A program made the translations under genes and the position numbers. The notes under the pieces are model-generated. The model did not search any database. It was not told where the DNA came from and saw only the letters and a list, made by a program, of their open reading frames with translations. Positions 1 to 17,353 of a stretch of DNA of 64,000 bases are shown piece after piece (within the stretch, counting starts at the first letter, position 1; the number at the start of each line of letters is the position of its first letter). Source of the stretch: Lacinutrix mariniflava (GTDB taxonomy: Bacteria > Bacteroidota > Bacteroidia > Flavobacteriales > Flavobacteriaceae); assembly GCF_001418015.1 (NCBI RefSeq), contig NZ_LIQG01000028.1:1-64000 (forward strand). The letters run 5' to 3'.

Positions 1-1843
1 ACTAGTGTAGATGTAATTATTCCAATTACAGATGACACAATAGGAGAGTAGACTAGAAACGTTTACAGTAGAAGGAACGGTAACAAGTGGAAATGCCACT
101 GATCCAGCAGATGGAACAGTAACAATCACAGATAACGATCCAGTAGCGACAACCATCGCCGATGTAACAGTAGACGAAGGAGCGGGAACAGTAACAGTTC
201 CAGTAACAATCGATACACCAAGTTCAGTAGATACAGTAATAGATATTGTAACAACAACTGGAACAGCAGGAACATCAGATTACACAACAACAACGACTAC
301 AGTAACAATTCCAGCAGGACAGACTAGTGTAGATGTAATTATTCCAATTACAGATGACACAATAGGAGAGCCAACAGAAACGTTTACAGTAGAAGGAACG
401 GTAACAAGTGGAAATGCCACTGATCCAGCAGATGGAACAGTAACAATCACAGATAACGATCCAGTAGCGACAACCATCGCCGATGTAACAGTAGACGAAG
501 GAGCGGGAACAGTAACAGTTCCAGTAACAATCGATACACCAAGTTCAGTAGATACAGTAATAGATATTGTAACAACAACTGGAACAGCAGGAACATCAGA
601 TTACACAACAACAACGACTACAGTAACAATTCCAGCAGGACAGACTAGTGTAGATGTAATTATTCCAATTACAGATGACACAATAGGAGAGCCAACAGAA
701 ACGTTTACAGTAGAAGGAACGGTAACAAGTGGAAATGCCACTGATCCAGCAGATGGAACAGTAACAATCACAGATAACGATCCAGTAGCGACAACCATCG
801 CCGATGTAACAGTAGACGAAGGAGCCGGAACAGTAACAGTTCCAGTAACAATCGATACACCAAGTTCAGTAGATACAGTAATAGATATTGTAACAACAAC
901 TGGAACAGCAGGAACATCAGATTACACAACAACAACGACTACAGTAACAATTCCAGCAGGAACAACAAGTGTAGATGTTATCATTCCAATCTTAGAAGAT
1001 ACAGAGGTTGAAGGGAATGAAGAGTTTACAGTAGAAGGAACGGTAACAAGTGGAAATGCAACTGATCCAGTAGATGGAACAGTAACAATTACAGATAACG
1101 ATGTACCAACGGTAACAATCGCAGATGTAACAGTAGATGAAGGCGCCGGAACAGTAACAGTTCCAGTAACAATCGATACGCCAAGTACAGAAGATATCAT
1201 AGTTGATATCGTAACAACAACTGGAACAGCAGGAACATCAGATTACACCACAACAACGACTACAGTAACAATTCCAGCAGGACAGACTAGTGTAGATGTA
1301 ATTATTCCAATCATAGAAGATACAGAGGTTGAAGGGAATGAAGAGTTTACAGTAGAAGGAACGGTAACAAGTGGAAATGCAACTGATCCAGTAGATGGAA
1401 CAGTAACAATTACCGATAACGATGTACCAGTTGTAACAATCGCAGATGTAACAGTAGATGAAGGAGCCGGAACAGTAACAGTTCCAGTAACAATCGATAC
1501 GCCAAGTACAGAAGATATCATAGTTGATATCGTAACAACAACTGGAACAGCAGGAACATCAGATTACACAACAACAACGACTACAGTAACAATTCCAGCA
1601 GGACAGACTAGTGTAGATGTAATTATTCCAATTACAGATGACACAATAGGAGAGCCAACAGAAACGTTTACAGTAGAAGGAACGGTAACAAGTGGAAATG
1701 CCACTGATCCAGCAGATGGAACAGTAACAATCACAGATAACGATCCAGTAGCAACAACCATCGCCGATGTAACAGTAGACGAAGGAGCCGGAACAGTAAC
1801 AGTTCCAGTAACAATCGATACACCAAGTTCAGTAGATACATAA
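1..1843 (+). pseudogene. 5' in-window part of giant Calx-beta adhesin, out of frame
   Basis: This stretch encodes Calx-beta repeats of about 107 residues with the motifs VDEGAGTVTV, AGTSDYT and TITDNDP. The protein frame starts in frame 1 at base 1, hits TAG at 49-51 beside a one-base length change relative to the other copies, and then runs in frame 2 until TAA at 1841-1843. There a missing G (GATACATAATAG where other copies have GATACAGTAATAG) puts it back into frame 1. Calx-beta domains are calcium-binding beta-sandwiches common in surface adhesins. No in-frame start codon is visible, and the gene begins before the window. The two opposite one-base changes could be true lesions or consensus errors in a near-identical repeat. 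I infer one long gene with 1843-4761. Confidence 0.6.
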
Positions 1844-3663
1844 TAGATATCGTAACAACAACTGGAACAGCAGGAACATCAGATTACACAACAACAACGA
1901 CTACAGTAACAATTCCAGCAGGAACAACAAGTGTAGATGTTATCATCCCAATCTTAGAAGATACAGAGGTTGAAGGGAATGAAGAGTTTACAGTAGAAGG
2001 AACGGTAACAAGTGGTAATGCAACTGATCCAGTAGATGGAACAGTAACAATTACCGATAACGATGTACCAGTTGTAACAATCGCAGATGTAACAGTAGAT
2101 GAAGGAGCCGGAACAGTAACAGTTCCAGTAACAATCGATACGCCAAGTACAGAAGATATCATAGTTGATATCGTAACAACAACTGGAACAGCAGGAACAT
2201 CAGATTACACAACAACAACGACTACAGTAACAATTCCAGCAGGACAGACTAGTGTAGATGTAATTATTCCAATTACAGATGACACAATAGGAGAGCCAAC
2301 AGAAACGTTTACAGTAGAAGGAACGGTAACAAGTGGAAATGCCACTGATCCAGCAGATGGAACAGTAACAATCACAGATAACGATCCAGTAGCGACAACC
2401 ATCGCCGATGTAACAGTAGACGAAGGAGCCGGAACAGTAACAGTTCCAGTAACAATCGATACACCAAGTACAGAAGATATCATAGTAGATATCGTAACAA
2501 CAACTGGAACAGCAGGAACATCAGATTATACAACAACAACGACTACAGTAACAATTCCAGCAGGATCAACATCAGTAGATGTTATCATCCCAATCTTAGA
2601 AGATACAGAGGTTGAAGGGAATGAAGAGTTTACAGTAGAAGGAACGGTAACGAGTGGAAATGCAACTGATCCAGTAGATGGAACAGTAACAATTACAGAT
2701 AACGATGTACCAGTTGTAACAATCGAAGATGTAACAGTAGACGAAGGAGCCGGAACAGTAACAGTTCCAGTAACAATCGATACGCCAAGTACAGAAGATA
2801 CAGTAATAGATATTGTAACAACAACTGGAACAGCAGGAACATCAGATTACACAACAACAACGATTACAGTAACAATTCCAGCAGGATCAACATCAGTAGA
2901 TGTTATCATCCCAATCTTAGAAGATACAGAAGTTGAAGGGAATGAAGAGTTTACAGTAGAAGGAACGGTAACGAGTGGAAATGCAACTGATCCAGTAGAT
3001 GGAACAGTAACAATTACAGATAATGATGTACCAACGGTAACAATCGCAGATGTAACAGTAGATGAAGGGGCCGGAACAGTAACAGTTCCAGTAACAATCG
3101 ATACACCAAGTACAGAAGATATTATAGTAGATATCGTAACAACAACTGGAACAGCAGGAACATCAGATTACACAACAACAACGACTACAGTAACAATTCC
3201 AGCAGGACAGACTAGTGTAGATGTAATTATTCCAATTACAGATGACACGATAGGAGAACCAACAGAAACGTTTACAGTTGAAGGAACGGTAACAAGTGGT
3301 AATGCAACTGATCCAGTAGATGGAACAGTAACAATCACTGATAACGATCCAGTAACAGTAACCATCGCAGATGTAACAGTAGACGAAGGAGACGGAACAG
3401 TAACAGTTCCAGTAACAATCGATACACCAAGTTCAGTAGATACAGTAATAGATATTGTAACAACAACAGGAACAGCAGGAACATCAGATTACACTGAAAC
3501 AATAATAACAGTAATAATCCCGGCAGGAGAAACGAGTGTTGATGTTGTTATACCAATATCAATTGATACTGAAGCTGAAGGAGACGAAGTATTTACAGTT
3601 GATGGCACAGTAACAAGTGGTAATACAACAAACACAGATCCAAGTGGTACTATAACAATTACA
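1..3663 (+). repeat. Tandem 321-bp Calx-beta coding repeats
   Basis: About eleven units with a 321-bp (107-codon) period follow one another; a GATAAYGAT ending recurs about every 321 bp from roughly 131 to 3340. Two unit types alternate irregularly. Type A reads PITDDTIGEPTETF and has DPVAT linkers. Type B reads PILEDTEVEGNEEF and has DVPVVT or DVPTVT linkers. Several type A copies look almost identical at the DNA level, while the last units before 3663 are more diverged. Such identity fits unequal exchange or gene conversion, and it is hard for assemblers. Confidence 0.9.
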
Positions 3664-10377: not shown

Positions 10378-10413
10378 AGCAAAAAATAAGTGAACTTTGG
10401 ATTAAAAATTTCG

Positions 10414-10767
10414 ATGTCCTCAGAAAGATTCTTAGCTATAGCGAATTTATTACTTCCAGAAGTACTTGTAAAGTATTTTGAGATGACTAAACATTATACT
10501 AAAGGTGAAGATATTGATTTTTACTTTACCGAATTAAATGAAACTCCAGAAGAATTTAAAAGTATTACTCTTCATTCTAAAGGCTTCTTTCCCGAAGCCA
10601 CTGTTCAAGATTTTCCTATACGTGGAAAGAATGTATTTCTACACATAACAAGGCGTAGATGGCTGAACAAAGCTACAGGAAAAGTAGTTACAAGAGATTG
10701 GCAATTAGTAGCAAAAGGAACTAGAATAACTAGTGATTTTGCTGCTTTTTTAAAAGAACTCTATTAG
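10414..10767 (+). CDS. ISAon1-type transposase N-terminal region (orfA)
   Basis: The protein has 117 residues from ATG 10414; an in-frame GTG at 10390 would add 8. It contains FYFTELNETP and RRRWLNKATGKVV and matches the short N-terminal ORF of ISAon1-type elements, probably the DNA-binding part of the transposase. It ends in TAG at 10765-10767 while the DDE part continues in the +1 frame, with an overlap of 14 nt (10754-10767). The stretch GCTTTTTTAAAAGAAC just before the stop is a possible slippage site. Confidence 0.8.
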   Translation: MSSERFLAIANLLLPEVLVKYFEMTKHYTKGEDIDFYFTELNETPEEFKSITLHSKGFFPEATVQDFPIRGKNVFLHITRRRWLNKATGKVVTRDWQLVAKGTRITSDFAAFLKELY

Positions 10768-11746
10768 TAATAACGCTTCTAACACAACAGTTATAGCTAA
10801 ATTCTACGGTGTAAATTCGAGAAATTTACAAAGGCAATACAAAGATTATTTAAGTGATTTCAAGCAGTGGAATCAAAAAGTACATGCAAAGCAATGGCTA
10901 CTATTTCCAAAGAATATAGGAAGCTATCTTTCGTTAGATGAAACAGCTTTTTCAAATGGCGATTTATACACTATACTAACTAATAAAAAAGCAAAAGGTA
11001 AAAAAGGAGCTATAGTGTGTATTGTTAAAGGAACTAAAGCTGATACTGTTATAGAAATACTCAGTAAAATTCCATTAAAACAAAGACGAAAAGTAAAAGA
11101 AGTGACCTTAGATATGGCTGGAAACATGGGATTAATAGTTAAAAAATCATTTATAGAAGCAACATTAGTTATTGATAGATTTCATGTTCAAAAGCTTGCG
11201 TTAGATGCATTACAAGACATTAGAATTAAGCATAGATGGGATGCACTTGATGCTGAGAACAGTGCTATAGAAAAGGCAAGAAATAATAATGAAAAATATA
11301 CTCCAATACTGTTTAGTAATGGAGATACACTAAAACAATTATTGGCTAGAAGCCGCTACTTGCTATACAAATCAAATAGTAAATGGACTAAAAATCAGCA
11401 AAAAAGAGCAAAAATACTTTTTGAACATTATCCAGATTTAGAAAAAGCATATAAGCTGTGTCAAAACTTATCTTGGATATTTAATAATACTAAAGGAAAA
11501 ACTTCTGCTTTAATACGTTTAGCTAAATGGGATGAAAAAGTAAGACAAGCAGCATTTAAAAGCTTCAATACCATTGCTAGAACAATGTCAATACACTATA
11601 AAAATATACTCAACTATTTTAATAACAGAAGTACTAACGCTTCTGCTGAATCTTTCAATGCTAAAATAAAAGCCTTTAGAGCACAATTTAGAGGTGTTAG
11701 AAACGTAGAATTCTTCTTATTTAGACTAACAACTATTTTTGCTTAA
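10754..11746 (+). CDS. ISL3/ISAon1-type DDE transposase (orfB)
   Basis: The frame is open from 10754 to the stop at 11746 (330 codons). Catalytic residues are visible: D in LSLDETAFSNGD (codon 10937-10939), D in VTLDMAGN with the following VIDRFHVQKL, and E in NASAESFNAKIKAFR near the C-terminus. No ATG, GTG or TTG occurs in frame before GTG 11015, which lies after the first catalytic Asp. A functional enzyme therefore needs fusion to orfA by frameshift or slippage. A caller may report only 11015-11746. Confidence 0.82.
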   Translation, partial: KNSISNNASNTTVIAKFYGVNSRNLQRQYKDYLSDFKQWNQKVHAKQWLLFPKNIGSYLSLDETAFSNGDLYTILTNKKAKGKKGAIVCIVKGTKADTVIEILSKIPLKQRRKVKEVTLDMAGNMGLIVKKSFIEATLVIDRFHVQKLALDALQDIRIKHRWDALDAENSAIEKARNNNEKYTPILFSNGDTLKQLLARSRYLLYKSNSKWTKNQQKRAKILFEHYPDLEKAYKLCQNLSWIFNNTKGKTSALIRLAKWDEKVRQAAFKSFNTIARTMSIHYKNILNYFNNRSTNASAESFNAKIKAFRAQFRGVRNVEFFLFRLTTIFA

Positions 11747-13139: not shown

Positions 13140-14405
13140 CTAACCAACGGCAGCTATTCTCATTAATTCTGCACATAGTATAGCACCATAAGTTCCCACT
13201 ACATAACCAAAGACTGCTAAAAGGGCTCCTACTGTAGCTAAAGACGGATGAAAGGCAGCAGCAACTATTGGAGCAGAAGCAGCTCCACCAACATTAGCTT
13301 GACTTCCTACAGCTAAGAAGAAATAAGGAGCTCGAATTAGTTTAGCAACTAATACTAATAATCCAGCGTGTATTGTCATCCAAACAAGACCAATCATTAT
13401 TAATCCGGGTTTTTCTAGAATACCTCCTAAATCCATTTTCATACCTATTGTAGCCACTAAAATGTAAATAAAAATACTTCCTATTTTACTTGCTCCAGCA
13501 CCTTCATATTTTTTTGCTTTTGTAAACGAAAGTAAAACACCAATTAAAGTAGAGATTGAGATTAACCAAAAGAAACCACTACCAAAAGAAGATAATGCAC
13601 TTTTAGGATCGCTAACGGCTTCAAAGTTATTCTTAAGAAAGGCAGTAATTTGTTCAGATCCAAAATGGGCGGCACCAACAGCTGTAAATGCAATCATAAG
13701 TATTACCATATAATCGTTTAAAGTTGGATTTCTTACTGTTTTATTAGCAAAATTTTCCATTTTTGCTTGAAGCGCATCTATGGCAGTATTATCTGCTTTT
13801 AACCACTTATCTATCTTTTCTCTTTTTCCAATTCCTAATAATAAAATAGCCATCCAAACATTGGCTACAAAAATATCTACTATAACCATTCCTCCATATT
13901 TCTCTGGATTGTATTGGTATATTTCTAGCATTGCTGCCTGGTTTGCACCACCACCAATCCAACTACCTGCTAAAGTAGATAAGCCTCGCCAAACGGCATC
14001 AAAATCGGCTCCTCCAACAGTTTCTGGAGAGAAAATTGATATTAATAAAATGGCTAACGGTCCACCAATAATTATACCTACGGTTCCAGTTAAAAACATT
14101 ATAAGTGCTTTTGGGCCTAAATTAAAAACAGCTTTTAAATCTATACTTAATGTAAATAAAACTAATGAAGCTGGAAGAAAATAACGGCTGGCAACAAAGT
14201 ATGCTTGAGATGTGGCAGGATCTACCCAACCAAATAGACTAAATAATGAAGGAATAAAGTAGCACATAAGTAGTGCTGGTACAAACTTGTAAAACGTTTT
14301 CCAAAATCCAGTTTTTTTATTTTCTGTATAGAACACAAAGCCCAAGGCTAGAAATAATAAGCCAAAAACAATGGCGTCATTTGTAAAAGGTAACGTAATA
14401 TCCAT
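13140..14405 (-). CDS. DUF819 family integral membrane protein
   Basis: This 421-residue polytopic membrane protein has about eleven hydrophobic segments (for example LLFLALGFVFYTE, ALIMFLTGTVGIIIGGPLAI) and glycine-rich stretches (GSWIGGGANQAAML, QANVGGAASAPIVAAAFHPSLA) characteristic of DUF819/YjcL-type proteins. The repeated GG(G)AN / NVGGAA motifs in two halves suggest a pseudo-symmetric transporter, but the substrate is unknown. The gene reads away from the six-copy small-RNA array, whose first promoter starts about 65 bp upstream of its start codon on the other strand. Confidence 0.85.
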   Translation of the reverse strand: MDITLPFTNDAIVFGLLFLALGFVFYTENKKTGFWKTFYKFVPALLMCYFIPSLFSLFGWVDPATSQAYFVASRYFLPASLVLFTLSIDLKAVFNLGPKALIMFLTGTVGIIIGGPLAILLISIFSPETVGGADFDAVWRGLSTLAGSWIGGGANQAAMLEIYQYNPEKYGGMVIVDIFVANVWMAILLLGIGKREKIDKWLKADNTAIDALQAKMENFANKTVRNPTLNDYMVILMIAFTAVGAAHFGSEQITAFLKNNFEAVSDPKSALSSFGSGFFWLISISTLIGVLLSFTKAKKYEGAGASKIGSIFIYILVATIGMKMDLGGILEKPGLIMIGLVWMTIHAGLLVLVAKLIRAPYFFLAVGSQANVGGAASAPIVAAAFHPSLATVGALLAVFGYVVGTYGAILCAELMRIAAVG

Positions 14406-14471
14406 ATTTAGTTTAATTAGTTATCGCAAAATACCAAATAAAAACAGGATAAAAAAAGTAAAAAATAAACT

Positions 14472-14488
14472 TTGGCATGTAAATTGAA
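14472..14488 (+). promoter_or_regulatory. Sigma-54-like promoter, copy 1
   Basis: TTGGCATG-TAAA-TTGAA has GG at 14474-14475 and GA at 14486-14487 with N10 between. It is the most diverged copy and has no upstream activator palindrome. Confidence 0.5.
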
Positions 14489-14498
14489 ATACGGAAAT

Positions 14499-14612
14499 AG
14501 AGATTGCTTACAGAGACTAATTTAAAGTGTGGTTACTTTAGATTAAGAGTAAGTAGTTATCATATTTTTGGTTGGTTAGTATGAAAAAGCGTCTTTTATA
14601 AGACGCTTTTTC
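14499..14612 (+). ncRNA. Predicted small RNA, copy 1 (diverged)
   Basis: Start is placed 12 nt after the -12 element. The 5' half differs clearly from the other copies, but the block GTGTGGTTACTTTA, the block TTTTTGGTTGGTTAGTATG and the 13-bp terminator stem (14583-14595 with 14600-14612) are conserved. The 5' stem appears to be kept by different bases (GCTTAC with GTAAGT). About 114 nt. Expression is unproven. Confidence 0.5.
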
Positions 14613-14624
14613 TATTTAACAAAG

Positions 14625-14642
14625 TGTCAGTTTAATGAGACA
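14625..14642 (+). promoter_or_regulatory. Candidate activator site TGTC-N10-GACA
   Basis: This inverted repeat lies about 130-150 nt upstream of the predicted start of copy 2. The same site recurs at 14897-14914, 15169-15186, 15441-15458 and 15713-15730. A second palindrome, TGAAATGTTTCA, lies at 14702-14713 and every 272 bp after. Position and symmetry fit enhancer sites for a sigma-54 activator. This role is inferred. Confidence 0.45.
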
Positions 14643-14747
14643 TATTGTGCAGCAAATAAGCTAAGCAGAAAAAGAGCATTTATAATTAAGTCAGGTAAAT
14701 GTGAAATGTTTCATAAAATAAGATACCATAAATACTACATAATAAGA

Positions 14748-14764
14748 TTGGCACGTTAATTGAA
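14748..14764 (+). promoter_or_regulatory. Sigma-54-like promoter, copy 2
   Basis: TTGGCACG-TTAA-TTGAA has GG at 14750-14751, ten bases, then GA at 14762-14763. The -24 half matches the TGGCACG consensus exactly. The -12 half has TTGA where TTGC is canonical. Confidence 0.6.
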
Positions 14765-14774
14765 ATGTAAATAG

Positions 14775-14884
14775 TAATTACTACAGCGACTATTTTAGAG
14801 TGTGGTTACTTTAAATTAAGAGTGGTAATTACCATATTTTTGGTTGGTTAGTATGAAAAAGCGTCTTTTATAAGACGCTTTTTC
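14775..14884 (+). ncRNA. Predicted small RNA, copy 2
   Basis: This is a predicted transcript of about 110 nt. The 5' segment TAGTAATTACTAC can pair with GTGGTAATTACCA further on (12 of 13 positions, one of them U-G). It is followed by an unpaired U/G-rich stretch TTTTTGGTTGGTTAGTATG and the terminator hairpin 14855-14884 (13-bp stem, loop TTAT). The sequence is identical to copies 3, 4 and 5 over this span. Function is unknown, and trans-acting pairing by the U/G stretch is plausible. Confidence 0.6.
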
Positions 14885-15019
14885 TATTTAACAAAGTGTC
14901 AGTTTAATGAGACATATTTTGCGGAAAATAAGTTAAGCAGAGAAAGAGCATTTATAATTAAGTCAGGTAAATGTGAAATGTTTCATAAAATAAGATACCA
15001 TAAATGCTACATAATAAGA

Positions 15020-15036
15020 TTGGCACGTTAATTGAG
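15020..15036 (+). promoter_or_regulatory. Sigma-54-like promoter, copy 3
   Basis: TTGGCACG-TTAA-TTGAG has GG at 15022-15023 and GA at 15034-15035. Confidence 0.6.
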
Positions 15037-15046
15037 ATATAAATAG

Positions 15047-15156
15047 TAATTACTACAGCGACTATTTTAGAGTGTGGTTACTTTAAATTAAGAGTGGTAA
15101 TTACCATATTTTTGGTTGGTTAGTATGAAAAAGCGTCTTTTATAAGACGCTTTTTC
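15047..15156 (+). ncRNA. Predicted small RNA, copy 3
   Basis: It has the same sequence and fold as copy 2; terminator hairpin 15127-15156. Activator-like site at 14897-14914. Confidence 0.6.
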
Positions 15157-15291
15157 TATTTAACAAAGTGTCAGTTTAATGAGACATATTTTGCGGAAAA
15201 TAAGTTAAGTAGAGAAAGAGTATTTATAATTAAGTAAGGTAAATGTGAAATGTTTCATAAAATAAGATACCATAAATACTACGTAACACGA

Positions 15292-15308
15292 TTGGCACGT
15301 TAATTGAA
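15292..15308 (+). promoter_or_regulatory. Sigma-54-like promoter, copy 4
   Basis: TTGGCACG-TTAA-TTGAA has GG at 15294-15295 and GA at 15306-15307. The bases just upstream (ACGTAACACG) differ from other copies while the element itself is kept. Confidence 0.6.
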
Positions 15309-15318
15309 ATGTAAATAG

Positions 15319-15428
15319 TAATTACTACAGCGACTATTTTAGAGTGTGGTTACTTTAAATTAAGAGTGGTAATTACCATATTTTTGGTTGGTTAGTATGA
15401 AAAAGCGTCTTTTATAAGACGCTTTTTC
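15319..15428 (+). ncRNA. Predicted small RNA, copy 4
   Basis: It has the same sequence and fold as copy 2; terminator hairpin 15399-15428. Activator-like site at 15169-15186. Confidence 0.6.
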
Positions 15429-15563
15429 TATTTAACAAAGTGTCAGTTTAGTGAGACATGTTTTGCAGTAAATAAACTAAGCAGAGAAAGAGCATTTATA
15501 ATTAAGTAAGGTAAATGTGAAATGTTTCATAAAATAAGATATCATAAATACTACAAAAGAATA

Positions 15564-15580
15564 TTGGCACGCTAATTGAA
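15564..15580 (+). promoter_or_regulatory. Sigma-54-like promoter, copy 5
   Basis: TTGGCACG-CTAA-TTGAA has GG at 15566-15567 and GA at 15578-15579. Only the non-critical N4 and upstream bases changed. Confidence 0.6.
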
Positions 15581-15590
15581 ATACAAATAG

Positions 15591-15700
15591 TAATTACTAC
15601 AGCGACTATTTTAGAGTGTGGTTACTTTAAATTAAGAGTGGTAATTACCATATTTTTGGTTGGTTAGTATGAAAAAGCGTCTTTTATAAGACGCTTTTTC
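15591..15700 (+). ncRNA. Predicted small RNA, copy 5
   Basis: It has the same sequence and fold as copy 2; terminator hairpin 15671-15700. The activator-like site at 15441-15458 has one change inside the N10 spacer (AGTTTAGTGA). Confidence 0.6.
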
Positions 15701-15835
15701 TATTTAACAAAGTGTCAGTTTAATGAGACATGTTTTGTTGCAAATAAGTTAAGCAGAGAAAGAGTATTTATAATTAAGTAGGGTAAATGTGAAATGTTTC
15801 ATAAAATAAGATGCCATAAATACTACATAATAAGA

Positions 15836-15852
15836 TTGGCACGTTAATTGAA
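15836..15852 (+). promoter_or_regulatory. Sigma-54-like promoter, copy 6
   Basis: TTGGCACG-TTAA-TTGAA has GG at 15838-15839 and GA at 15850-15851. Confidence 0.6.
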
Positions 15853-15862
15853 ATATAAATAG

Positions 15863-15972
15863 TAATTACTACAGCGACTATTTTAGAGTGTGGTTACTTT
15901 AAATTAAGAGTAGTAATTACCATATTTTTGGTTGGTTAGTATGAAAAAGCGTCTTTTATAAGACGCTTTTTC
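15863..15972 (+). ncRNA. Predicted small RNA, copy 6
   Basis: One substitution relative to copies 2-5 (GTGGTAATT to GTAGTAATT) turns the U-G pair of the 5' stem into U-A, so the predicted pairing is preserved. Terminator hairpin 15943-15972. The array stops here, and no further activator palindrome follows. Confidence 0.6.
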
Positions 15973-15996
15973 TATTTGTATAACTTATACTAAAAA

Positions 15997-16024
15997 AAAA
16001 GACTCACTAATTTGTGAGTCTTTT
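15997..16024 (-). terminator. Terminator between array and hydrolase gene
   Basis: An 11-bp stem AAAAGACTCAC / GTGAGTCTTTT closes a 6-nt loop. T-rich flanks on both strands make it bidirectional. It serves the minus-strand hydrolase gene. Confidence 0.85.
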
Positions 16025-16046
16025 CTATTCCGTAAACATTCAATAG

Positions 16047-16970
16047 CTATTTTATAAATTCAATAATTACTTCAAGTAGCTCTGGAGCTAGTTTTCTGGA
16101 TGTTTCATTATAAGATTTAGAATTTTCCAAATCATCACCTTCTATAGGAACTAGAATATGATTCATTTTATCTATAATTTTTAATTCAGCTTTCGGCGCT
16201 GCTTCATTTAAAAGTCTCGCTTCAGCCTCAGAGACTTGTAAATCTTTTGTGCCATTAATAATAAGTATTGGCATATTTAATTTTTTAATTTCATCTTGAG
16301 GATTGTAAGACATCCAATTAGCAATAAAAGGTTGTACATCTAGATTAAATATAGAGGCTAGAGCAGGAGGAAAGTCTGCTGTTGTTTTTCCTTCTTTTAA
16401 AACATTAAATACACGTTTAGTATCTTCTAGAAACATTGGTGCTGTTTTTTCCACTTGTTCAGTAATAACCATATCTATAGATTGTCCTGCTCCAGCAAGA
16501 GATATAAAACCATCGGCGTTATTTTGTGCTGCTAACATGCCAACCAAACTACCTTGACTGTGTCCTGCAATGTATATTTTGTTATAACTTTTAGTGTTTT
16601 TAAAATAAGTGAGCACAGATTTTGCATCTACTACAAAATCATCAAACATCATGTCTTTATCTACGTTTCCTTTTCTTATTTGCTTTACTATACGTTTATC
16701 GAAACGAAAGGTTGCTATGTTTTGGTTAGACAGTCCTATTGCTAATTTTTTAAGCGAATTTCCTTTTAAAAAATTTTGATTCCCATCGCGATCAGTAGGT
16801 CCAGAACCAGCAATAATAATAACTAAATTAGGTTTTTCTATTGTAGTGGGAAGTAATAGAGTACCATCAATTAATTTATTTACCGCAATGTCTTGCATTG
16901 TGTAGTTTTTTTCTTGAGCATAACCAAAACTCCCGACAAATAATAAAACAATAAGAACTTTTATTTTCAT
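16047..16970 (-). CDS. Exported alpha/beta hydrolase
   Basis: This 307-residue protein has a signal peptide (MKIKVLIVLLFVGSFGYAQ) and an alpha/beta-hydrolase fold. The nucleophile elbow is GHSQG, the acid is probably Asp in NGTKDLQV, and the catalytic His is in KMNHILVP. The oxyanion-region motif is IIAGSGPTDRDGN, as in periplasmic serine esterases or peptidases of Bacteroidota. I start at ATG 16970 rather than the in-frame start at 17033, because the former begins a canonical signal peptide. Substrate unknown. Confidence 0.85.
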   Translation of the reverse strand: MKIKVLIVLLFVGSFGYAQEKNYTMQDIAVNKLIDGTLLLPTTIEKPNLVIIIAGSGPTDRDGNQNFLKGNSLKKLAIGLSNQNIATFRFDKRIVKQIRKGNVDKDMMFDDFVVDAKSVLTYFKNTKSYNKIYIAGHSQGSLVGMLAAQNNADGFISLAGAGQSIDMVITEQVEKTAPMFLEDTKRVFNVLKEGKTTADFPPALASIFNLDVQPFIANWMSYNPQDEIKKLNMPILIINGTKDLQVSEAEARLLNEAAPKAELKIIDKMNHILVPIEGDDLENSKSYNETSRKLAPELLEVIIEFIK

Positions 16971-17353
16971 GATATAATTATTTAAATCTATGGTATTACA
17001 AAACGAATGCCATTTATAATATTTACAAAGCAAATTTACTGTTTAATTTTGAACAAAAATTGATTTTTTAGTGTCAGCAAAAGATGCGTTTCATCGATTT
17101 TATGTTTTATTTCATCGTTAAATGTTAAAATTTAATGTATTTCGTCGAAATATGACGCCTTTAAACGTCCGAAAAGAAATAACTACCCTACATTTGTGTT
17201 GTACTAAGAGACATAATTTTTAGTCAATGGATTAATTAATTAATATTTGCATATCACTTTAAATTGATATAGTAACCCTAAATCTAACCAAAGAATAAAA
17301 CGCAAATACAGAAAACCAAAGTTGAGGGACTTTGGTTTTTTTGTGCCCTAAAT
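16971..17353. other. Intergenic region with direct repeats and a possible small transcript
   Basis: No protein gene is seen. Three octamers TTTCATCG (17089-17096, 17110-17117) and TTTCGTCG (17140-17147) are spaced 21 and 30 bp apart. A TAnnTTTG box (TACATTTG, 17189-17196) follows, and a strong hairpin ends at 17339. It could hold a regulated small RNA of about 140 nt on the plus strand. Confidence 0.4.
17312..17346 (+). terminator. Strong hairpin, T-tract on plus strand
   Basis: An 11-bp stem AAAACCAAAGT / ACTTTGGTTTT with loop TGAGGG is followed by T on the plus strand. It also lies at the 3' end of the minus-strand alkB-like gene, so it may serve both strands. Confidence 0.8.

Follow-up and report, generated by a model that had tools for sequence, protein, structure and literature searches.

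What kind of element is repeated six times in a noncoding interval of the Lacinutrix mariniflava genome? In the first 64,000 nucleotides of contig NZ_LIQG01000028.1 (assembly GCF_001418015.1, forward strand), which whole stretch we refer to as the window, six similar units lie head to tail at positions 14472–15971 of the + strand between a divergent and a convergent gene. The original prediction, made from the DNA letters, had interpreted them as a family of sigma-54-dependent small RNAs (sRNAs), an interpretation that our results support, since the promoter is kept together with the RNA, rpoN is present, and the full unit is confined to one locus of this genome instead of being dispersed. From the composition of the units, their conservation, the association with a promoter, the covariation of a hairpin, and the presence of rpoN and activator genes, we consider it probable that the array comprises six sigma-54-type regulatory RNA genes under the control of an activator, with the conserved stretch UUGGUUGGUUAG as the effector.

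Each unit consists of a sigma-54-type box, a predicted RNA of ~110 nt, and an intrinsic terminator formed by a 13-bp stem and a U-run. The boxes occupy positions 14472–14488 (copy 1, TTGGCATGTAAATTGAA), 14748–14764 (copy 2), 15020–15036 (copy 3, TTGGCACGTTAATTGAG), 15292–15308 (copy 4), 15564–15580 (copy 5), and 15836–15852 (copy 6), with intervals between successive starts of 276, 272, 272, 272, and 272 bp. The predicted sRNAs, whose starts we placed according to the -24/-12 spacing, extend from 14499 to 14611 in copy 1—a diverged copy whose prediction is also based on folding and which ends at its own terminator—and from 14775 to 14883, 15047 to 15155, 15319 to 15427, 15591 to 15699, and 15863 to 15971 in copies 2 to 6, the last carrying one substitution. 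The tandem arrangement of six + strand units, the box TTGGCAYG-N4-TTGA common to all of them, and the 13-bp terminator, the same in 6/6 copies, had all been correctly anticipated, and Tandem Repeats Finder detects the same array; the exact 272-bp period that had been claimed holds for copies 2–6 and fails in the first interval.

When compared with a 114-nt query, copies 2–5 were identical, copy 6 was 99% identical, and copy 1, over query positions 8–114, was 93% identical. Within copies 2–6 a single column out of 110 varies in the RNA, in agreement with the one substitution noted originally, whereas 21 of 135 columns vary in the spacer, 2 of 17 in the promoter, and 2 of 10 in the linker, the difference between spacer and RNA having a Fisher p of 2e-5 if the columns are treated as independent. 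The spacer had been described as varying freely, which description fits those 21 columns and not the 19-bp sequence TGTGAAATGTTTCATAAAA, fixed within the spacer of copies 2–6. The predicted RNA folded better than 200 of 200 dinucleotide-shuffled sequences (z -7.25), and the fold z-scores ranged from -5.2 to -7.3 across three copies of the array.

We built a covariance model (R1) from 37 units, each beginning just 3' of the -12 element, so that the promoter was left out. This model matched 217 of 397 genomes of the Flavobacteriaceae at E <= 0.001, a count that includes weak matches as well as a second, related class of RNAs (class II) described below; a family was thus recovered in the related genomes. 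In the host genus, strong unit matches were present in all 13 of the genomes searched, that of L. mariniflava included. An order-level search with R1 gave matches in 25 of 395 genomes, one of which, G039, lies outside the family; we count that match as unsupported, because the centre of its locus showed no seed.

From the fetched loci we scored 97 model matches and kept 89, having left out four of the window's copies 2–6 and four matches in a locus that duplicates another. After setting apart 8 matches in training loci, 13 of class II, and 3 odd ones of low score, there remained 65 class I matches in 55 loci. The motif TGGCA-N6-TTG occurred upstream of 62 of these 65 matches, all of them outside the training loci, its rate in mononucleotide-shuffled upstream DNA being 0.00044 per site, and none of the 13 class II matches had a sigma-54-type box. 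A -24/-12 promoter at the right distance is therefore conserved with the RNA, as would be expected of a sigma-54-dependent regulatory RNA, and that conservation reaches beyond the genus even though the model was blind to the promoter. Likewise, a search for the box followed 50–80 bases 3' by GGTTRGTTAG gave 104 genomes out of 397, in 81 of the 237 genera, whereas the pattern in reversed form gave 3 genomes; a few of the listed box-plus-seed matches lack a U-rich seed and look accidental.

Tandem units are not confined to the host genus: G229, G316, and G103 have three each, G379 has four, and G205 has two; in addition, boxes with seeds recur every 200–280 bp in G386 and every ~205 bp in G213. 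Since several genera hold tandem units, the arrays probably expanded separately in several lineages, as judged from this distribution rather than from a tree. As a separate observation, the middle unit of three in the loci L072 and L073 retains the RNA and the terminator with no recognisable sigma-54 box.

The full units occupy only one locus in the genome of L. mariniflava, and the dispersal over many loci that a mobile repeat would entail was not found, the promoter moreover being conserved beyond the genus. A mobile repeat was ruled out on the grounds that no full unit exists elsewhere in this genome and that units are present in 13 of 13 genomes of the genus. The array had no plasmid match, and the 48 viral stretches matching the promoter-plus-seed pattern look like chance, because none of the 48 passed a check for a U-rich seed or for a terminator behind it. 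A selfish or accidental tandem duplication, kept uniform by gene conversion and yielding an RNA without function, would agree with the strong similarity of copies 2–6 and with the different copy numbers among relatives. Against that explanation, which we find scarcely credible, the promoter, the stem pairing, the seed, and the terminator are kept across genera, at single-copy loci as well; the spacer diverges, whereas the RNA does not; and the units are limited to one locus in their own genome.

Regarding the factors that transcription of the array would require, this genome encodes one full-length sigma-54 (rpoN) with all three sigma-54 domains and four strong PF00158 activator proteins, all on contigs other than that of the array: an NtrX-like regulator in which no helix-turn-helix was found, an NtrC-like protein adjoining a histidine-kinase-like open reading frame (ORF), one protein lacking a receiver domain, and a fourth that carries PAS and GAF domains. 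Both an rpoN gene and an NtrC-type activator, whose presence the original prediction had asked to be checked, are thus present. Strict boxes of the form TTGGCAYRNNNNTTGMW numbered nine in the genome, with none in the reversed control; five of them are in the array. Of the other four, two lie before ORFs that have no Pfam match, one secreted-looking and one lipoprotein-looking; a third lies before a Lon gene, and the fourth before a small ORF that is followed by a glutamate-dehydrogenase-type gene in the vicinity of the NtrC-like gene.

The sequence TGTGAAATGTTTCATAAAA, identical 5' of copies 2–6 (14700–14718, 14972–14990, 15244–15262, 15516–15534, and 15788–15806, + strand) and centred ~68 bp before the predicted start, contains the dyad TGAAA-N2-TTTCA and is a candidate activator site. 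Elsewhere in the genome TGTGAAATGTTTCATAAAA was absent at up to one mismatch. The genus as a whole offers 25 internal units, and 18 of them, belonging to its nearer members, have the dyad at one fixed distance with no more than one mismatch. A genome scan with the dyad pattern at 3 mismatches gave 51/47 matches as against 69/78 in the control; since that pattern falls below its control, only the five exact dyads of the array are meaningful.

The most conserved portion of the RNA lies at the 3' end. In the first alignment, of 37 rows, TTGGTTGGTTAG before the terminator was nearly invariant, with all columns but one identical, and the conserved stretch UUGGUUGGUUAG from the same alignment is our candidate effector; in a few later loci the variants GGTTAGTTAG, GATTGGTTAG, or GGTTGGTTAA were found. 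In the window the conserved element GGTTGGTTAG, the candidate seed, lies on the + strand at 14570–14579 and, in the other copies, from 14842, 15114, 15386, 15658, and 15930. In a set of 73 sequences the seed element was unpaired with a mean probability of 0.60, as compared with 0.38 in the 5' part, and the hairpin loop had a value of 0.53 (68 sequences). That loop contains one GGUU motif, and the single-stranded 3' element contains two. The inner hairpin around GTGTGGTTAC had 85.0% of its cells paired versus 72.9% upon shuffling, and a covariation score of 0.339 versus 0.151, which value was reached by 0 of 500 shuffles, slid versions attaining at most 0.187; those figures refer to the 45 distinct sequences in which GTGTGGTTAC is exact, and do not include the TTGAGTGGTTAC-type loop that many other genera have. 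An outer stem from the 5' end also folds in many members. The motif GUUGGUUAG, which we take to resemble a tRNA D-arm, did not occur in the window's single tRNA. A small protein encoded in the unit was considered as well, and put aside on inspection by eye alone.

These features may be assembled into a mechanism. Each copy would be a complete transcription unit in which a -24/-12 promoter of the sigma-54 type drives an RNA of ~110 nt that ends at an intrinsic terminator, and a single sigma-54 activator would bind the dyad of copies 2–6. Once a signal had switched that activator on, the copies would fire together and deliver a large and steep dose of one RNA, the tandem arrangement raising both the dose and the speed. 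The RNA itself would possess a self-closed 5' stem, an inner hairpin exposing GGUU, and a mostly single-stranded AUAUUUUUGGUUGGUUAGU beside the terminator; this 3' element, the family's most conserved part, is most likely the effector and would pair with target mRNAs in C/A-rich (AACCAACC-like) stretches close to their start codons, as is usual for trans-acting sRNAs. Complete units, an activator-dependent sigma factor, and a conserved, mostly single-stranded stretch would thus be best explained as trans-acting regulatory RNAs.

A number of results weigh against this interpretation. The presence of rpoN, or its co-occurrence with the units, is uninformative, because 394 of the 397 family genomes have the gene. 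The box is missing in 3 of the 65 class I matches (two mid-array copies and one locus with a mismatch), and in the large genus g146, which to judge by its size is probably Flavobacterium, the box-plus-seed pattern appeared in 1 of 299 genomes, with 3 in the control. The candidate activator dyad was found before none of the 12 first copies of the genus, nor before copy 1 of the array, and it carries 3 to 7 mismatches in the 7 internal units of the five more distant genus members, three of which units keep TTAAATATTTC or CTAAATATTTC within one base of the expected place. Among 89 entries the dyad was found once, in the window's own entry, and at none of the class I loci examined outside the genus, which absence means that the site is either lineage-specific or not recognisable elsewhere. 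As to the RNA, the minimum-energy fold pairs the seed in the window's copies 2–6 (0.22 unpaired), and, in the GTGTGGTTAC hairpin, double-sided changes affect 9 of 12 pairs, a number reached by 44 of 500 shuffles. Finally, the -12 element in the host genus is TTGA in nearly all units, instead of the usual TTGC.

This last feature would suit an array that is not sigma-54-driven, in which TTGGCA-N6-TTG is kept for some other DNA-binding protein and the RNAs arise from a housekeeping promoter. We consider such an arrangement highly improbable, in view of the -24/-12 spacing and bases that fit in 62 of the 65 class I matches, some of which do have TTGC at -12, and of the same box occurring before the Lon gene and before the small ORF with the glutamate-dehydrogenase-type gene near an NtrC-type activator. 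In addition, PMC9723704 describes a -24/-12 motif with mapped starts in Flavobacterium psychrophilum for chaperone genes, lon, gliding genes, and the putative RNA Rfp36, the inclusion of lon in that list being paralleled by the strict box before the Lon gene here.

The search for targets likewise tells against the proposed mode of action. The 13-nt core TTGGTTGGTTAGT had no opposite-strand match in the genome, and TAACCAACC-N0-30-ATG gave 297 matches versus 312 for the reversed control in the 13 genus genomes, a count in which the antisense strand of the array is included. No target is supported, because these tests of complementary sites yielded nothing above the control; among the matches listed, one ORF had TAACCAACCAATG at its start in two genomes, and we do not claim that ORF as a target.

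That failure would be understandable if the RNAs were decoys, whose repeated GGUU motifs titrated an RNA-binding protein and whose copy number set the titration capacity, in the manner in which RNAs of the CsrB/RsmZ type titrate CsrA. The near-identical copies would suit such a dosage function, and two further observations speak for a decoy: the recurrence of GGUU in both the loop and the single-stranded 3' element, and the sharing of this element with the class II RNAs and with some mRNA 3' ends ahead of terminator-like hairpins. Nevertheless, no protein of that kind is known to us here, no search having been aimed at one, and the conserved UUGGUUGGUUAG exceeds a typical protein motif in length, a feature that favours base-pairing over titration; we accordingly judge a decoy function to be unlikely, and retain base-pairing by the 3' element as the preferred mode of action.

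The class II RNAs (loci L113, L114, L120, L122–L126, L128, L130, L131, L133, and L134) are very conserved, with a GGGGTGGTTCCC hairpin, AAGTTTGGTTGGTTATTT, and a terminator, and have no sigma-54 box. Upstream they have GTTAAGG..GTTAAAGTA.GTTAAA repeats, which look like the direct repeats of a regulator. In the five loci inspected, class II precedes one recurring ORF type, in which DUF3108 was identified in the single ORF tested. The element TTTTGGTTGGTTA was, moreover, seen by eye in several genomes just 3' of an apparent coding-sequence end, with a terminator-like hairpin after it (L043, minus strand, at 1532; L044:1456; L046:1419; L047:1451; L048:3497; and L042:~1505), and a one-base variant is present at an apparent coding-sequence end in L. 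mariniflava itself.

As a tentative proposal, which we think clearly less likely than not to hold as a whole, the Flavobacteriaceae might possess an RNA network sharing the 3' module UUUGGUUGGUUAG plus terminator, carried by the sigma-54-driven sRNAs, either single or in arrays, by the class II sRNAs with GTTAAAGTA-type repeats upstream, and by some mRNA 3' ends. All of these would compete for a common partner, be it a set of mRNAs or a GGUU-binding protein, and the stress-dependent firing of the array through sigma-54 would reset the network.

How does the array compare with known RNAs? A scan of the whole window against Rfam 15 at gathering scores matched a tRNA only, and nine further loci had no match; the array itself thus has no match in that release. 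Weak matches to RsaA, sau-5949, and others in a permissive scan of 14300–16100 were rejected as chance, since they lay far below the cut-offs. The Qrr RNAs of Vibrio, invoked in the original prediction, are multi-copy short RNAs, each with its own sigma-54 promoter and depending on an activator; their genes are dispersed, one of them beside luxO. The comparison stands as an analogy—a short RNA in multiple copies, every one of them preceded by a sigma-54-type promoter and closed by a terminator—and not as membership, there being no Qrr match at gathering scores in the window and none in the permissive scan of 14300–16100. The copies in the array are, unlike the Qrr genes, in tandem, and no activator-like ORF was seen beside them, the four strong activators being on other contigs.

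The layout is closer to that of NsiR1 of Nostoc, which is described in PMC9045159 as 12 tandem sRNA copies with their own promoters, the central copies identical and the outer ones diverged. The likeness concerns that layout only, the promoters of the array being predicted: NsiR1 measures ~60 nt and is transcribed in cyanobacteria from HetR-dependent DIF1-motif promoters (PMC9045159), whereas the array has sigma-54-type promoters and its host belongs to the Flavobacteriaceae. Within the same phylum, the FopS sRNAs of Bacteroides thetaiotaomicron constitute, according to PMC11697453, a 14-member family associated with RbpB, resembling ours by description in being multi-copy and in sharing a seed; their promoters are, nonetheless, of the sigma-ABfr type, in contrast to the conserved sigma-54-type box of the array, where an additional housekeeping promoter is possible.

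The original prediction knew of no such array in the Flavobacteriaceae, which statement fits the open-access literature, in that we found no description of this array or family among papers on sigma-54/RpoN sRNAs or tandem noncoding RNAs in flavobacteria. It requires a qualification, however, because Table 2 of PMC9723704 already contains Rfp36 of F. psychrophilum, a putative regulatory RNA whose mapped start lies 3' of a sigma-54 motif; by its description, Rfp36 shares with the array the family and the type of motif, and sigma-54-motif sRNAs are therefore not new as such in the Flavobacteriaceae. On this evidence the combination, the sRNA family, and its spread are new, whereas tandem arrays of sRNAs with their own promoters (NsiR1) and multi-copy sigma-54 sRNAs (Qrr) were already known.

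The genes around the array are themselves recurrent. The divergent neighbour, on the - strand at 13140–14405, encodes a DUF819 membrane protein and starts ~67 bp from the box of copy 1, that copy having no upstream dyad; the convergent neighbour, on the - strand at 16047–17033, encodes an alpha/beta hydrolase, and both adjoin the units in many relatives also. Among the 13 best loci of the host genus, both genes were in the fetched flanks of 11; the other two (L007 and L008) had the hydrolase only, with DUF819 and another unit on a separate contig (L051 and L052). A hydrolase, DUF819, or SPFH gene was present in the short flanks of 44 of 61 class I loci versus 0 of 13 class II loci. In two other genera (L048:2230 and L323:1711–1940) a single sigma-54-type sRNA lies directly 5' of a secreted-looking gene that has a box of its own, and a gene resembling the latter, also with a sigma-54-type box, is present in L. 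mariniflava (L215). Elsewhere in the window, an ORF for an ISL3-type transposase (11015–11746) lies between a tRNA-Thr gene and the array, and an ORF at 10390–10767 without a Pfam match may be another piece of that transposase; positions 1–3557 contain a tandem repeat of ~321 bp in 11 copies, which probably encodes a large surface protein of repetitive sequence.

Little is known of post-transcriptional control in the Flavobacteriaceae, and a widespread sRNA family gives a direct entry to that subject, offering its own promoter signature, a near-invariant candidate seed, and a natural series of copy numbers from 1 to 6. The sigma-54 regulon of these bacteria would gain an RNA arm, and the idea of multi-copy RNAs driven by sigma-54, known in Vibrio, would be extended to another phylum and to a different layout, where arrays from several lineages would let one ask what tandem dosage brings.

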